Of a stretch of DNA of 27,906 bases, positions 5,002-14,686 are shown in pieces (within the stretch, counting starts at the first letter, position 1; every line of letters begins with the position of its first letter). The DNA comes from a virus. A program made the position numbers and the translations under genes. The stretch covers positions 1 to 27,906 of IMG/VR virus record IMGVR_UViG_3300030090_003865; one strand, written 5' to 3'. The notes under the pieces were generated by a model. It saw only the letters and a list, made by a program, of their open reading frames with translations. It did no database searches and was not told the DNA's origin.

Positions 5002-5313
5002 TTAGACTACATCAAATAGAACCCAGCACTTGCGTATGGCTCTACGCCAGTAGGTTTTGGCTGATGATTCAGATATTTCCAGGTTTTCTGCTATGAGTGG
5101 AAAGCTATGCGATTTTAAGCGCATCTTGAAGACCTGAAGTTCACGCTCGGATAGACTGTCGTAGGCCTCATGGGCTGAAAGCTGCCAATGGCGCATATGT
5201 GGCTCGATGAGTCCAGAGCGGAAGATTGCTAGTTTGCGAAAGAACTCGTCACCGAGGTCGATGGATTCGATCAGTCTTTCGTAGTCATCTTCGGTGATTA
5301 TTGGCCAGTCCAT
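5002..5313 (-). CDS. HTH protein of sigma-70 region 4 / LuxR type
   Basis: A 103-residue protein whose second half (about residues 54-95: LSERELQVFKMRL, then EISESSAKTYWRRAIRK) matches the helix-turn-helix of LuxR or sigma-70 region 4 proteins. It is the first gene of the packaging/head operon, so it may act as a late-gene transcription activator, in the manner of the ArpU or RinA proteins of other phages, or as a small packaging factor. There is no clear Shine-Dalgarno, and a perfect 12-bp palindrome lies 6-17 bases before the ATG. The DNA-binding fold is fairly secure; the role is inference. Confidence 0.65.
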   Translation of the reverse strand: MDWPIITEDDYERLIESIDLGDEFFRKLAIFRSGLIEPHMRHWQLSAHEAYDSLSERELQVFKMRLKSHSFPLIAENLEISESSAKTYWRRAIRKCWVLFDVV

Positions 5314-5660
5314 TATTGTAACATATGTTAGTGCTTAAAAATAAAAAAAAATTTTACACGCGAAGTATGTCGCAAGCAAAAATCTGTCCTTGTGGTTCGG
5401 CTTTATTGTGATTAAAAAGGCCAGATTTAATTTCAAATAGAATAATTTGTTCGCATACCATTGAGATAAATGTATTGTATCGGTATTTAATAGGCAATTT
5501 TAAACGTAAAAATCGTAAATACATTTAAATCGGTTAACTACATTTGATCGGACGCGCTCAAAAAAAACATATATAAAAGGTATTATATATAATTAATGTA
5601 TAAATAATTGTTGCATATATTAATAATATTGTTTAATATTTAACCATCATGCACAATTAA
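5314..5660. promoter_or_regulatory. Divergent intergenic region between late operon and plus-strand block
   Basis: This 347-bp AT-rich stretch without a gene separates two divergent operons and should hold promoters for both. Visible elements are a palindrome at 5319-5330 and a possible sigma-70 box for the plus strand (TTGAGA 5461-5466, 17-bp spacer, TATTTA 5484-5489). There is also a direct repeat, TACATTTAAATCGG (5520-5533) against TACATTTGATCGG (5539-5551), and an inverted pair TAAATGTAT (5467-5475) / ATACATTTA (5519-5527). These suggest regulator binding but none is proven. Confidence 0.5.
5319..5330. promoter_or_regulatory. 12-bp palindrome, possible operator
   Basis: TAACATATGTTA is a perfect palindrome just upstream of the HTH gene start at 5313. 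Related sequence (ACATATG with nearby TTGTAA) recurs at the start of the repressor-like gene near 14713, so one regulator could bind both places. Confidence 0.4.
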
Positions 5661-5675
5661 ATGAAAGGAATTAAC

Positions 5676-6557
5676 ATGAGGAAAGTATTAAAAAATCATT
5701 CTGAAGTGGCGCATTTCTGGGCCAATCAAGTCCAAGCGGAAGGCAGGGCTAGTCGTATGTTTTACGAAAATGGTACTATATATAGTTATGGTTACCATTT
5801 TCCAATAGCAAGGCATATAGATGATAATATAATACTATTTACTACTAGGGATTATTCAAATTCTACAAGCAAACATATTTCATACACTAAACAAGCTATT
5901 CCAAGCTATAATAATGTTATTTACGCTGATGATATTGAAATAAGATTAAAATCACCTAGCAACCATCTTCCAAATAAAACAATTCACGCCAATAATGTAT
6001 TATCAATGTTAAATACCATTAAAAATAATCTTGATAAATCAACCAGAGCAAGATCAAATAAAAAGTTTTATTTGGCTGATGCTTCAAGCAATATAAATAA
6101 TATGGTTAAATACATTGATTTATTTAAATGTAAATCAATTTTACCATATAAAACAAAAAAGCTAGTTAATGAGATATTAAACGGCAATCAATATTGTTTA
6201 TTGGAATTAGCAGAAAAAGAACGCAAGGCTTTAAAACAAAAACAAGCGCTTTTAAAGAAAAAGGCTTTAAAGGACCTTAAAAAATGGCGTAATGGTGAAA
6301 TATATGATTTACCATTTGGATTAAATAAGCGTTATTTAAGACTAGTCAATAATGAAGTGGAAACAAGTGGCCATATTAAGATAAGTGCTGAATTGTTTTT
6401 GGAATATTACAAGCGCTTAAAATCAGGATTTGATCTTACTGGGTTAAAAATAAGTCATTACAGAATTGACAAACAAACGGAAAAATCACTAAAAATTGGC
6501 TGTCATTCGATAGATATTGACGAAATTGAAAACATAGCAAGATTGTTAATTAATTAA
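5676..6557 (+). CDS. Conserved phage protein of unknown function
   Basis: A 293-residue protein of unknown function. Its N-terminal third reads HFWANQ, then SRMFYENGTIYSYGYHFPIAR and NIILFTTRDYS. I recall similar WANQ / IYSYGxHFPIA / FTTRxYS proteins in many unrelated phages, so this is a widespread phage family without a known role. The middle has a lysine-rich helix (about residues 195-215) and the end is alpha-helical. I chose the ATG at 5676 because AAAGGA lies just upstream, like the other genes in this block; the ATG at 5661 has no site. It is the first and largest gene of the AT-rich plus-strand block, opposite to nearly all other genes, so it may be an early or accessory (moron-like) gene. 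Confidence 0.75.
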   Translation: MRKVLKNHSEVAHFWANQVQAEGRASRMFYENGTIYSYGYHFPIARHIDDNIILFTTRDYSNSTSKHISYTKQAIPSYNNVIYADDIEIRLKSPSNHLPNKTIHANNVLSMLNTIKNNLDKSTRARSNKKFYLADASSNINNMVKYIDLFKCKSILPYKTKKLVNEILNGNQYCLLELAEKERKALKQKQALLKKKALKDLKKWRNGEIYDLPFGLNKRYLRLVNNEVETSGHIKISAELFLEYYKRLKSGFDLTGLKISHYRIDKQTEKSLKIGCHSIDIDEIENIARLLIN

Positions 6558-6574
6558 ATAAAAGGAAAGTAAAT

Positions 6575-6718
6575 ATGAAAAAATACTATAAAACACTAGC
6601 GCAAGCTAAAAAAGCTATTAAATTTTTTGGAAGTGGCTATAATATTTATGATTTAGGCAAGCATAGAAAGATAAAAAGGTTTTTTATAGGCACTCATTTT
6701 GATTGGTTAAATTTATAA
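6575..6718 (+). CDS. Small hypothetical protein, 47 aa
   Basis: This short basic frame starts at an ATG with a good AAAGGA site (aaaggaaagtaaatATG), the same leader found before other genes in the block. The protein begins MKKYYKTLAQAKKAIKFFG and contains many lysines and aromatic residues. No family is recognised. It follows the 293-aa gene by 17 bases, so it is probably co-transcribed. The repeated, well-spaced ribosome site is the main reason to believe it is real. Confidence 0.6.
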   Translation: MKKYYKTLAQAKKAIKFFGSGYNIYDLGKHRKIKRFFIGTHFDWLNL

Positions 6719-6740
6719 ATATAAATAAAAGGAAAGTAAA

Positions 6741-6830
6741 ATGGACAAATTTAGACTATTTCAAGAGTTTATTACGCTAGTATTTATTATATGTACATGG
6801 CTATTTATAATGGTTTTTTTCAACATTTAA
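6741..6830 (+). CDS. Small single-pass membrane peptide, 29 aa
   Basis: A 29-residue frame with a strong ribosome site (aaaggaaagtaaaATG). Residues 10-28 form one hydrophobic membrane helix (FITLVFIICTWLFIMVFF). It belongs to the same plus-strand series as its neighbours. Function unknown; a membrane-acting early peptide is possible but only a guess. Confidence 0.5.
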   Translation: MDKFRLFQEFITLVFIICTWLFIMVFFNI

Positions 6831-6842
6831 ACAAGAACCTAT

Positions 6843-6947
6843 ATGCGATTATTTATTATAAAACTATTAATTAAAATACTATATCCAAGAGCTAAGAATA
6901 TTACTATTGCTTGGAATAATGGCTTAAAAGTTAAAACCTATTATTAA
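6843..6947 (+). CDS. Small hypothetical peptide, 34 aa
   Basis: A 34-residue, basic, partly hydrophobic frame (MRLFIIKLLIKILYP at the start) closely following the previous gene. Its ribosome site is poor, so translation may depend on coupling. It ends inside the first copy of the 33-bp repeat. Least certain of the three tiny genes here. Confidence 0.35.
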   Translation: MRLFIIKLLIKILYPRAKNITIAWNNGLKVKTYY

Positions 6948-7030
6948 TAACTGATCTTTATATTATTTAACAAAGGGTAATAACTGATCTTTATATTATT
7001 TAACAAAGGGTAATAACTGATCTTTATATT
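6945..7030. repeat. 33-bp direct tandem repeat (2 full copies plus a 20-bp partial)
   Basis: A 33-bp unit beginning TAATAACTGATCTTTATA is present exactly at 6945-6977 and 6978-7010, and its first 20 bases recur at 7011-7030. The unit contains one copy of the CTTTATATTA...AAGGG element that is scattered to 8240. The two copies are identical, pointing to recent duplication or functional selection. It lies in the roughly 160-bp gap before the gene at 7105. Confidence 0.9.
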
Positions 7031-7104
7031 TAAGATGGCAGGGTCATTTATATTTTTACTGACAGGGCCAAAAGATTTTAATAACAACGAAAGGAAAAAG
7101 TAAA

Positions 7105-7293
7105 ATGAGTAAAGTAAAAGAAGATATTAATCTAGTTGCTGATTGGATAGTAAATGATTGCCATGAAACTATTGACGAGGTTCGTTGGCTTTTAAAAGAA
7201 ATATTTATTAATGGAGATTTAATCGGAACTAAAGAATCAATTAGATCTGTTTATGATGGCGTATTTGAGTATAAAGAAAGTGAGGTGGAGTGA
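7105..7293 (+). CDS. Small acidic hypothetical protein, 62 aa
   Basis: A 62-residue, strongly acidic protein (MSKVKEDINLVADWIVNDC at the start), mostly helical, with no recognised family. The ATG has a good AAAGGAAAAAG ribosome site. Its last codons (ESEVE) and the bases that follow contain the ribosome site of the next gene, and the same segment is repeated at the end of the next gene. It opens a three-gene set with tightly overlapping ends. Acidic small early phage proteins often act on host or phage regulators, but nothing shows that here. Confidence 0.6.
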   Translation: MSKVKEDINLVADWIVNDCHETIDEVRWLLKEIFINGDLIGTKESIRSVYDGVFEYKESEVE

Positions 7294-7529
7294 TGGCTTT
7301 TAGTAAAATATTGACAAATTATGATGCTACAATTTATGGAATGATATTATCTATTCTTGCACCTAGTGATAGAGATGGTAAAAAAGCAATAGCAATAGCT
7401 GAAGAAATAGCTAATAGATGCACTGAAGAAGAGATTGATAGAGCTAAGTACCTAGTATCCAATATAATGGAGTTAGTGCAAATTGAAACTGCGAGGGTAA
7501 AGAATAACAAAGAAAGTGAGGTGGAGTAA
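7293..7529 (+). CDS. Small hypothetical protein, 78 aa
   Basis: Starts at the ATG that overlaps the previous stop (TGATG), with GAGGTGGAG upstream; a GTG one codon earlier is less likely. The 78-residue product (MAFSKILTNYDATIYGMIL at the start) is helical, with a middle rich in Ala, Ile and Glu (AIAIAEEIANRCTEEEID), and ends KESEVE like its neighbour. No family recognised. The overlap implies coupled translation with the genes on both sides. Confidence 0.6.
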   Translation: MAFSKILTNYDATIYGMILSILAPSDRDGKKAIAIAEEIANRCTEEEIDRAKYLVSNIMELVQIETARVKNNKESEVE

Positions 7530-7783
7530 TGGAATTACATAATTCGTTTTTTGTAAAAGCCTATTTTGACATGACATCAAAGAGTGCGCTTGATGTAGTA
7601 AGTAATGCTAAATCAACAATTAAATATTTCGAAAAATTACATGAAATACTTGAAAAATGTGATAGTTATGATTGGAATGGTGAAGATAGTCAATGGATTC
7701 ATGTATATGCTAATACTGATCATAAAAAGTTGAAAAAGATCTTAATTGAAAAATACTATTTTCAAGAGGAAGATGAGGTGTAG
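7529..7783 (+). CDS. Small hypothetical protein, 84 aa
   Basis: Starts at an ATG overlapping the previous stop (TAATG) behind the same GAGGTGGAG site. The 84-residue protein (MELHNSFFVKAYFDMTSKS at the start) looks mixed alpha/beta with an acidic end (EEDEV). No family recognised. It ends the plus-strand block; a repeat copy and an 8-bp hairpin (7780-7787 with 7793-7800) follow its stop, then a gene on the other strand, so the hairpin may help end transcription. Confidence 0.6.
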   Translation: MELHNSFFVKAYFDMTSKSALDVVSNAKSTIKYFEKLHEILEKCDSYDWNGEDSQWIHVYANTDHKKLKKILIEKYYFQEEDEV

Positions 7784-7808
7784 TAATCTTATATTACTAC
7801 CAAAAGGG

Positions 7809-8156
7809 TTATTTTCTCTTAACTTTTTTATAATTAGCACCCTTAAAATTCCCCTTGCGCCTACGATTCGCTTCAGCCAACTTATGCTCATACTTCATAA
7901 GCAAGAAGCACTTGCGCAAACCCTCAACCTGAAGATGCTTGGACCAATTTAAGATAGCACCACATAAGAGCTTATCATTTTCATCTTTATAAGCCAACAT
8001 ACAATAATAATCAAGCTCTGGCCTACCTAAATTGCATTGATTATGATGATATTTATCGCTTAGATACTCTTTTATATTATCTGACAAAGGGTCAGTTAGT
8101 TTGAGATCTAACTTGTCTATAATACTACTCAAAGGGTCTTTTATATTATCTTTCAC
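7809..8156 (-). CDS. Hypothetical protein with repeat-derived N-terminus
   Basis: A 115-residue basic protein of unknown function. The start is a GTG (8156) with no visible ribosome site, so the real start may be internal. The first 35 residues contain the echoing pieces DNIKDPLSS and TDPLSDNIKEYLS, because this DNA consists of copies of the dispersed repeat read in the reverse direction. The rest has a Cys/Trp-containing middle (LLCGAILNW) and a very basic tail (RRRKGNFKG to the end), suggesting nucleic-acid binding. It converges with the plus-strand block. A real gene is likely from the C-terminal half; the N-terminus is doubtful. Confidence 0.5.
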   Translation of the reverse strand: MKDNIKDPLSSIIDKLDLKLTDPLSDNIKEYLSDKYHHNQCNLGRPELDYYCMLAYKDENDKLLCGAILNWSKHLQVEGLRKCFLLMKYEHKLAEANRRRKGNFKGANYKKVKRK

Positions 8157-8340
8157 ATGGTGTCTTTATATTTATATCAAAAGGGTTATGGTAATGATAG
8201 TTTGAATGATAGTTTTCCTTTATATTACTACCAAAAGGGTGAAAAATAGGGAGTGAAGGGGGTTTATTATTGATAGTATTGATAGTTTCAAGCCCCAAAC
8301 TATCAAAACTATCAAAACTATCACGCCCTCCCCCAAACGC
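8157..8340. other. Repeat-rich intergenic zone, candidate replication origin
   Basis: A 184-bp stretch with no gene, between the helicase stop and the 115-aa gene. It holds repeat copies at 8164 and 8218 and seven TGATAGT heptamers: forward at 8195, 8207, 8271 and 8280, reverse at 8299, 8308 and 8317. Clustered heptamers at 9-bp steps, next to a helicase gene, resemble iterons of a replication origin. They could equally be regulator sites or part of a terminator. Confidence 0.5.
8270..8315. repeat. Long inverted repeat / hairpin built of TGATAGT units
   Basis: TTGATAGTATTGATAGTTT at 8270-8288 is followed by the 8-base loop CAAGCCCC and its reverse complement at 8297-8315 with one mismatch, giving a 19-bp stem. 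No T-run follows on either side that would make it a classic terminator. Each arm contains two TGATAGT heptamers. Confidence 0.85.
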
Positions 8341-9453
8341 TTATTCTGTCTCATAAAAGGTCATTTTAGTCTTTTTATAGCGCCCATGAGACAACTTTTT
8401 CACTATCCCAACCGACACCATCTCCCCCAACCACCGATGCGCTGTAACTTCTGACACATTGTCACCCTGGGTATCTCCACAAACATTAAGCCACTCGTAA
8501 GTCTCAAAATCATTGGCCATTCTATCCAGGTGTTGTTCCCACTTCGTCTTACGAGGCTCTGGCACAACCAAACCCTTGATCTTATCGCTAGAAACCAACC
8601 CACCGCAGACCACCGCCACGCCACCTTGTGGCTGATCGTTTATCTCTATACCATAAATACCAGGGTTCTTCGATCCCATGCGACTTTTACCCACCGCATA
8701 CAAACTAAAGTCGGCATTCGTCTTGCAAACCATCGAACAATATTCATACCACCAGTTAATCACACTTGACCCTGCCATTCTCTCTTCGGTTACTCCCTGA
8801 TCCTGTGTATTTTTGTTAAAGTGATGAATAACCACCAGCGCAGCATCGCTCTGCCCTTTTAACTTCTCTATCTTACGCAACAAAGGCTTGATCTTATCCG
8901 CATCCGATATATTGCTTGCCCCAGAAAGCTGATATAAATTATCAATAATAATCACCTCTGGCTTTTGTATCTCCACCTGCGCCTCAATCAACGGAAATAC
9001 CTCTTCAAAATCACCTGGCTTAGTAATTAACGTAAAATTCTCAGCGCACTTGAATTTATCAATAGCATGACCCACCGTCAGCTTCATAATCCTTGAGCGT
9101 GTTTCATCAATACCATTCTCAAGGTCCACATACAGCACCTTACGCATCTTCGGTATCTCAAATCCAATATACCCAGTCTTTCCTGCTGCGATCGACAACG
9201 CTGCCCCCAGGTATAAATAACTCTTCCCTGCCTCAAAATCACCGACAGCTATCGTCTTCTTGCGCATCGGAATCATATCCTTTACCGCCCATTCGACCTC
9301 ACGATAAGGTGCATCCCAAATATCAAGGCCTTTTAGCACGCTTGTGCCGTTTTTAACCACCTTGTCATCGGTTACTTCGCCATTTCGTTGTAAAAAATCG
9401 GTCAAATCTTCCCCATTCTTCAATTCTATATCCGATTTTCTAGCTTTGGCCAT
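8341..9453 (-). CDS. RepA-like replicative helicase (RecA-fold ATPase)
   Basis: A 370-residue ATPase of the RepA/AAA_25 type, hexameric helicases that unwind DNA at phage and plasmid origins. Walker A is GDFEAGKS (residues 71-78) and Walker B is VIIIDNLY (D171). The typical VVIHHFNK and a GSSVINWWYE segment follow. The last 70 residues look like a winged helix (AHRWLGEMVSVGIVKKL), which would suit DNA binding. The gene overlaps the primase gene by 14 bp, so the pair forms a helicase-primase unit. The iteron-like heptamers lie immediately after its stop. RadA/DnaB-like ATPases are the alternative, but the motif set fits RepA best. Confidence 0.85.
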   Translation of the reverse strand: MAKARKSDIELKNGEDLTDFLQRNGEVTDDKVVKNGTSVLKGLDIWDAPYREVEWAVKDMIPMRKKTIAVGDFEAGKSYLYLGAALSIAAGKTGYIGFEIPKMRKVLYVDLENGIDETRSRIMKLTVGHAIDKFKCAENFTLITKPGDFEEVFPLIEAQVEIQKPEVIIIDNLYQLSGASNISDADKIKPLLRKIEKLKGQSDAALVVIHHFNKNTQDQGVTEERMAGSSVINWWYEYCSMVCKTNADFSLYAVGKSRMGSKNPGIYGIEINDQPQGGVAVVCGGLVSSDKIKGLVVPEPRKTKWEQHLDRMANDFETYEWLNVCGDTQGDNVSEVTAHRWLGEMVSVGIVKKLSHGRYKKTKMTFYETE

Positions 9454-10180
9454 TTAAAAGCCCTATCATCTTAACTTCAGCCCTCTTGCCTGCCTCATCA
9501 TCATCAAAAATAACCGAAATATCGCTAAATTTACTCGTGATTACACCAATCAAGTCACTTGAGGGCGTACAATTTGCCCCATTATTGAAAGAAATCGCCT
9601 GCCTACCGCTACTGATCATCGAAATACAATCTTTTTCCCCTTCCACAACGTACAATGTCCGATTCCCCTTATATTTATGCAGCATATGCCAATACGGATA
9701 CACAAATGTCTGCGCATGGCCTTTGACCTGCATACGTTTATGCCATTTTATATTCACCAGATCACCAACCGCATCAAAATATGGAAAAACAAAGCCATTA
9801 TCCCAACCGATAAACAATTTTTTCACAATATCCTTATTCCAGGGGAGATCCTTGCAATATTTATCATAATTGAGTAGTAATTCGTCCATCGCAGCGTTGA
9901 TCACATCAAAATATTTGATTGGCAATGAAGTCGGTGCTTGCCATGTCTTTTTCTTAATAACGACCTTATTGGCTAAATTTGGGGCTTTTTCTCCGACCAT
10001 TTCTGCAAATTTCCTTATATTTCCCTTAACATTGCAGGCATGACAATAAAATACACCATCATCCCTAAAACTAAAACTTGGCTTTGTATCATCGTGAAAA
10101 GGACAAATGCCCTTATATTCTCCATTAGAACCACGCTTGATTCCTTGAACATGGCGCTCAAATAAATCAAAAGAGTTCAT
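9440..10180 (-). CDS. DNA primase, CHC2 zinc finger plus TOPRIM
   Basis: A 246-residue primase that makes RNA primers for replication. The N-terminal zinc ribbon uses C26, H29, C46 and C49 (CPFHDDTKPSF, then YCHAC), the CHC2 type. A TOPRIM catalytic domain follows: the glutamate is in LYVVEGEKDC (about residue 178) and the metal-binding aspartates are in VIFDDDEAGK near the C-terminus. It is shorter than DnaG and lacks the helicase-binding domain, as is common in phages with a separate helicase. It overlaps both the helicase and the methyltransferase genes by 14 bp. Confidence 0.9.
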   Translation of the reverse strand: MNSFDLFERHVQGIKRGSNGEYKGICPFHDDTKPSFSFRDDGVFYCHACNVKGNIRKFAEMVGEKAPNLANKVVIKKKTWQAPTSLPIKYFDVINAAMDELLLNYDKYCKDLPWNKDIVKKLFIGWDNGFVFPYFDAVGDLVNIKWHKRMQVKGHAQTFVYPYWHMLHKYKGNRTLYVVEGEKDCISMISSGRQAISFNNGANCTPSSDLIGVITSKFSDISVIFDDDEAGKRAEVKMIGLLNGQS

Positions 10181-14446: not shown

Positions 14447-14686
14447 TCAAATAAATACCTCATCGCGAGTGACATCTATATTAAATTTTCGCAACGTAAA
14501 GAAAATCTTGTCGGCCTGATAATCTTGTAACCTACGCTTACCATTTACAATTTGATGTAGTAGCGTATGGTTAATGTCTGTTTGCCTTGCCAGCCAAAAT
14601 AATGAGCGTTGGACATTAGGCCTTGTTAAAACCTCTTTAATCTTCGTTTGAGGTTGAATTGGTGTGTTAATTTTAGGTCTTCCCAT
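14447..14686 (-). CDS. Cro/CI-type helix-turn-helix regulator
   Basis: A 79-residue protein with one helix-turn-helix of the HTH_3 kind (SLFWLARQTDINHTLLHQIV, then NGKRRLQ). I chose the ATG at 14686, eight bases after AGGA. The ATG at 14713 would add nine residues but has no ribosome site and lies in a candidate operator. It stands between the integrase (divergent) and the early operon (same direction), so it may be a Cro-like regulator or a short repressor. It has no cleavage or dimer domain. Confidence 0.7.
   Translation of the reverse strand: MGRPKINTPIQPQTKIKEVLTRPNVQRSLFWLARQTDINHTLLHQIVNGKRRLQDYQADKIFFTLRKFNIDVTRDEVFI

Follow-up and report, generated by a model that had tools for sequence, protein, structure and literature searches.

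A polar 22-bp element beside the replication genes

The virus record IMGVR_UViG_3300030090_003865, a stretch of 27,906 nt that was analysed whole and is called the window below, carries ten copies of an asymmetric 22-bp motif, all on the + strand, between 6957 and 8240. The element most likely binds a viral protein that initiates DNA copying or regulates genes nearby. In the more specific reading that we favor, to which we give slightly less than an even chance, the copies would be the sites of a single phage protein, forming an iteron-type origin at a core cluster and reused as operators where extra copies occur. An uncultivated phage family thereby gains a candidate origin. The window is a complete virus record and encodes a terminase, an integrase, and a tape-measure protein.

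Both strands of the entire window were scanned with the pattern TTTATATT-N7-AAAGGGT, allowing at most 2 mismatches over the 15 fixed positions. The scan yielded exactly ten copies of 22 bp each, all +, and zero copies on either strand outside 6957-8240, which bears out the preliminary description of about ten copies in one orientation within an AT-rich zone and none elsewhere in the window. That description gave the size as 22-25 bp with a variable centre. The lower figure is correct for what is a rigid 22-mer, whereas the upper one probably reflects the 23-25 bp pitch between neighbours; the centre does hold six to seven unconstrained bases, but its length is fixed. Dinucleotide shuffles of the window gave a mean of 0.26 copies (maximum 2 in 300 shuffles) and shuffles of the AT-rich 2 kb a mean of 0.05 (maximum 2 in 2000), compared with the ten observed. 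Composition therefore does not explain the array, and chance or AT-richness can be excluded as its source. An equal density, which the preliminary description had suggested looking for, was found neither in the rest of the genome nor in shuffled sequence, and the array stands out from both.

Half of the ten copies match the element exactly. In the left array, copies 1 and 2 (6957-6978 and 6990-7011, both exact) belong to successive 33-bp tandem units, the second of which is a tandem duplication missing from a relative (G001), and copies 3 and 4 (7023-7044 and 7047-7068) are GGCAGGGT and GACAGGGC variants. This array stops 36 bp ahead of the ATG at 7105, where three small + strand genes begin (7105-7783) that vary between relatives. 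Copy 5 (7788-7809) sits where the last + gene meets the end of a convergent, conserved 115-aa gene (C0; 7809-8156, − strand). Copies 6 (8071-8092, exact) and 7 (8116-8137) lie within the 115-aa gene, 45 bp apart and with the same spacing in relatives; copy 8 (8140-8161) spans its start codon, and copies 9 (8165-8186) and 10 (8219-8240), both exact, lie upstream of it.

Across 131 distinct copies from the window and its relatives the consensus is YTTTATA(T/A)TW-N6-A(A/C)AGGGT, with positions 4-6 and the A preceding GGG invariant, T or A at position 7, and A or C at position 17. TTATAWT and AMAGGGT are separated by 7 nt at 64 forward and 0 reverse sites, and gaps of other lengths are almost never seen. 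Family-wide, the pitch between neighbouring distinct copies is mostly 23-25, 33, or 45 bp.

The element is confined to one phage family

Relatives were collected through the helicase, which gave 16 virus contigs with proteins 65-100% identical and more by profile search, and through the 115-aa gene at identities down to 53%. All 24 related contigs examined carry the element, with hits of 151 vs 1 and 92 vs 0 on one strand and the other; a reversed control pattern gave 12 and 3 hits in the same contigs. All of these contigs are metagenomic, and some searches may have run without records very close to the window. An unbiased search of 2.9 million viral contigs for a two-copy DNA pattern matched only members of this phage family, so the array is family-specific, and the element provides a signal for recognising members without gene similarity. 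In G001, a 35-kb terminally redundant genome, a single 2.6-kb zone next to the primase-helicase genes holds all the copies, and those of a 36-kb relative (G014) are likewise restricted to one zone. Independent contigs from different samples bear the element, which excludes an assembly artefact, and a CRISPR or known RNA was excluded with no Rfam match. The ends of G001 overlap by 262 bases with 2 mismatches, inside the left array, giving a genome of ~35.0 kb; contigs may break at the repeats.

No nucleotide match to a named relative was found among 50,697 phage records, nor did the 115-aa protein match any named phage record; named relatives are limited to distant helicase and terminase matches. 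In bacterial genomes the helicase had a single match, at 24% identity, to a gene on a Melioribacter MAG contig. The motif is absent from that contig, and a repeat search downstream of the helicase-like gene found nothing similar.

Selection on the motif within a conserved gene

In every relative, 3-7 copies form a core within the 115-aa gene and upstream of it. The 18 contigs that span this core all have 1-2 sites in the 5′ part of the gene and 1-5 from there to the helicase stop; the copies left of the core number from 2 to 9 in the same contigs. The gene was compared among 15 sequences. Where a codon has its third base in the motif (GAC, CCT, AAT/ATT, ATA), 815 comparisons gave 0 synonymous differences; since the sequences are related, these comparisons are not independent events. 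The control is the set of spacer codons in the same copies, which differed synonymously at 45%, and the remainder of the gene differed at 41%. By codon, 10 of 10 motif codons are frozen, those of copy 6 included, vs 7 of 87 others. Selection thus acts on the nucleic-acid sequence, that is, on the motif itself within the 115-aa gene, a clear case of a DNA signal dictating the codons, and even a repeated peptide, of a conserved gene. The in-gene copies (8071-8137) oblige the 115-aa protein to repeat a peptide, DPLSxxI..., at a distance of 15 residues. The protein itself has no family, PDB, or fold match, and its AlphaFold model was uninformative (pLDDT 45).

The comparative evidence favors an array bound by protein at the DNA level. 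Of the natures considered in the preliminary description, it leaves an origin, for the core cluster, and a regulator array, for the extra copies at operon heads and gene starts, as the leading readings. The third, an unknown small element, is weakened in its mobile form by core copies that occupy equivalent positions in every relative and by the purifying selection inside the gene.

A candidate origin at the core

The core cluster directly adjoins an AAA_25 replicative helicase-type gene (8341-9453, −), followed by a DnaG-type primase with a CHC2 zinc finger and a Toprim domain (9440-10180, −). Both belong to a leftward replication operon that also encodes an annealing/SSB protein, RusA, an exonuclease, and a DNA methyltransferase. 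Between the core and the helicase gene is a hairpin of 9-bp repeats (8270-8324), in which two TTGATAGTA-type units stand opposite three ACTATCAAA-type units. It covaries in relatives, where the unit GATAGT becomes GAGAGT or GTTAGT with the partner arm changing too; five pairs have double changes, and the covariation score is reached by 0 of 500 shuffles and not by slid controls. This second repeat also occurs, as TGATAGTTT, in two free-standing direct copies (8195-8203 and 8207-8215, +) between copies 9 and 10. These change in step with the hairpin between relatives, pointing to protein recognition or concerted evolution in addition to simple pairing. Together, the hairpin and the free-standing repeats may provide another site for a protein to bind, or a primase or terminator structure.

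The origin reading follows from the fixed length of the bipartite site, its polarity regardless of gene direction, the universal cluster beside the primase and helicase, the AT-rich surroundings, and the hairpin. The rigid motif, its polarity, its confinement to this zone, the conserved core, the codon-level constraint, and the covarying hairpin are observed, whereas protein binding, origin and operator function, and the identity of the binder are inferred. Each 22-bp asymmetric element would be bound by one DNA-binding protein, probably phage-encoded. The universal core, with the AT-rich DNA beside it and the covarying hairpin of 9-bp repeats, would most likely be the replication origin, where an initiator assembling on the core copies as iterons would lead to loading of the helicase and primase from the neighbouring operon. 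The copies that head the variable + operon or overlie ribosome-binding sites could be the same sites serving as operators, so that the bound protein would tie expression of the small genes to the same factor.

Iteron repeats are able to serve in regulation as well as in replication. In the published layout, an iteron origin consists of direct repeats for an initiator next to an AT-rich stretch, and the origins of lambda (ori in gene O) and of plasmids P1, R6K, and RK2 resemble the present array in having ~20-bp asymmetric direct repeats next to replication genes and AT-rich DNA (PMC5043065). As in lambda, where the iterons lie within a gene, some of the core copies are in coding sequence. The array thus shares with iteron origins multiple direct repeats of a fixed-length asymmetric site, with replication genes and AT-rich DNA adjacent, conserved in relatives. 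It differs in that the motif extends 1-3 kb into accessory genes and also overlies ribosome-binding sites, in the adjoining 9-bp-repeat hairpin, and in a spacing that is out of helical phase. The best period of the centre-to-centre spacings is 10.4 bp, which is suggestive only, as a few spacings dominate the data, and neighbours are offset by ~0.28 turn; helical phasing of iterons is general but not absolute in the literature. Family, PDB, and fold comparisons of the 115-aa protein recognised no initiator. The 115-aa product is a candidate binder only by position, its gene lying where that of an autoregulated initiator would be expected. In the window, GC skew is dominated by gene direction and locates no origin. 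Counting against an origin as the entire explanation are the copies over the ribosome-binding sites of ~17 swapped small genes, which it leaves unexplained. A single polar motif might couple the two functions, marking the origin and placing swapped-in small genes under the initiator. We consider this dual role fairly unlikely; if it holds, it would show how phages bring new small genes under existing control through a control site fused with a ribosome-binding site.

Alternative roles of the array

The array could instead act in the manner of stoperators, with a phage regulator on all copies blocking or attenuating rightward transcription. The small + genes would then be silenced and the leftward replication operon shielded from antisense transcripts, the polarity being the direction to be stopped. 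We regard this as the main alternative and as possible, if on the unlikely side. Every copy points along + gene transcription, the copies lie at operon heads, at gene starts, and at the + to − junction and beyond, and the single polarity is explained as well as it is by an origin. The stoperators of cluster A mycobacteriophages such as L5 are likewise asymmetric repeated sites of one polarity that are active in a single orientation; the protein on them binds as a monomer through two DNA-binding domains, which would suit a bipartite site (PMC9283540). They are, however, 13 bp long and genome-wide with an orientation that tracks local transcription, and the present element does not flip for leftward genes such as the 115-aa gene. 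A conserved lambda-repressor-like HTH protein is encoded beside the integrase (XRE/lambda-repressor-like, 79 aa; 14450-14686, −). Pfam does not recognise it, and its fold assignment comes from Foldseek matches with E-values only of 0.04 and up at a probability of 1.00; it was found in 11 of 14 contigs searched and is conserved in all 11. Yet no element lies near this gene, at the promoter-like TTGCAT-N17-TAATAT before the first + genes, or in the rest of the genome. In addition, the densest and only universal cluster sits past the last + gene, in and upstream of a leftward gene.

Homology for gene swapping, promoters, and translation signals each explain only parts of the data. Repeats that serve mainly as short homologies for exchanging small-gene cassettes are an improbable explanation, although the variable zone offers several observations of this kind. 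The small + genes differ widely among relatives, where a left array of 2-7 copies heads the second + operon of small genes. The preliminary description had asked whether related phages keep the repeats but not the genes, and they do: a 384-bp left-array segment (~6725-7108) is ~97% identical between the window (G000) and G001, the window having an extra 33-bp unit, and the genes differ on both sides. Pairs of copies with their ribosome-binding site recur ahead of different genes as ~55-bp modules common to otherwise unrelated contexts, and another relative, G003, has the appearance of a G001-like arrangement in which two pair modules have undergone exchange. However, the breakpoints that lie near elements coincide with gene borders, which confounds the association, and gene swapping leaves unexplained the frozen codons of the 115-aa gene, the invariant 7-nt spacer, and the single polarity, none of which similarity among copies would by itself require. 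T4-type mobile regulatory cassettes (PeSL) are small regulatory modules, consisting of an early promoter and a stem-loop, that recur between genes in a gene-swapping region. The modules described here similarly recur amid swapped genes, but the element contains no such stem-loop or recognised promoter.

We find it quite improbable that the copies are promoters for a phage sigma factor or single-subunit RNA polymerase, with TATA(T/A)T as a −10-like box and AAAGGGT as the start region. TATAAT or TATATT is suitably distant from gene starts in start-associated copies, and the window has a gene for a sigma region-4/GerE-like HTH protein (5002-5313). But about half of the copies lack a downstream + gene and are directed antisense to the helicase, and arrays run to 7 tandem copies at a pitch of 23-25 bp. 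None of the window ORFs tested was recognised as a polymerase gene, a sigma-70 scan showed no promoter excess, and of the −35 and −10 boxes with 16-18 nt spacing that define a sigma-70 promoter only the −10-like TATAWT is present.

At ~17 of the 131 distinct sites, as single copies or 25-bp pairs, AAAGGG doubles as the ribosome-binding site, with the ATG 5-6 nt downstream. The closest parallel is the SAS/ESAS of cluster K mycobacteriophages, a short asymmetric repeat in nearly all cases in one orientation, which is confined to non-structural genes and overlaps the ribosome-binding sites of genes from different families (PMC3203893). SAS is the 13-bp GGGATAGGAGCCC, to which the present consensus is unrelated; virtually all SAS lie directly upstream of start codons, and they are spread over half a genome rather than 1-3 kb. 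That the element marks translation starts at the RNA level, the role first proposed for SAS, is very improbable here and cannot be general, since most copies are away from gene starts, many have no + gene behind them, and the most constrained ones are antisense within the 115-aa gene.

Two further site types were considered. Integrase arm sites are disfavored by the 6.6-kb distance to the integrase and by the length and bipartite form of the element. For a partition centromere array, no ParA/ParM/TubZ-type partner was found among the annotated ORFs.

The variable gene zone

In the region 5661-8000, small, rapidly swapped + genes are flanked by two conserved anchors, the sigma-4-like gene and the 115-aa gene. 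Genes in this variable zone were called mechanically, and functions in related phages are taken from families. This zone is likely an accessory or anti-defence island. Several relatives also have a copy at the junction of their last + gene with the 115-aa gene. The promoter-like sequence ahead of the first + genes of the zone (~5615-5655, +) is conserved. On its left, the 103-aa sigma-70 region 4/GerE-like protein (5002-5313, −), which adjoins the terminase genes and is likely a late-gene regulator, is extremely conserved among relatives.
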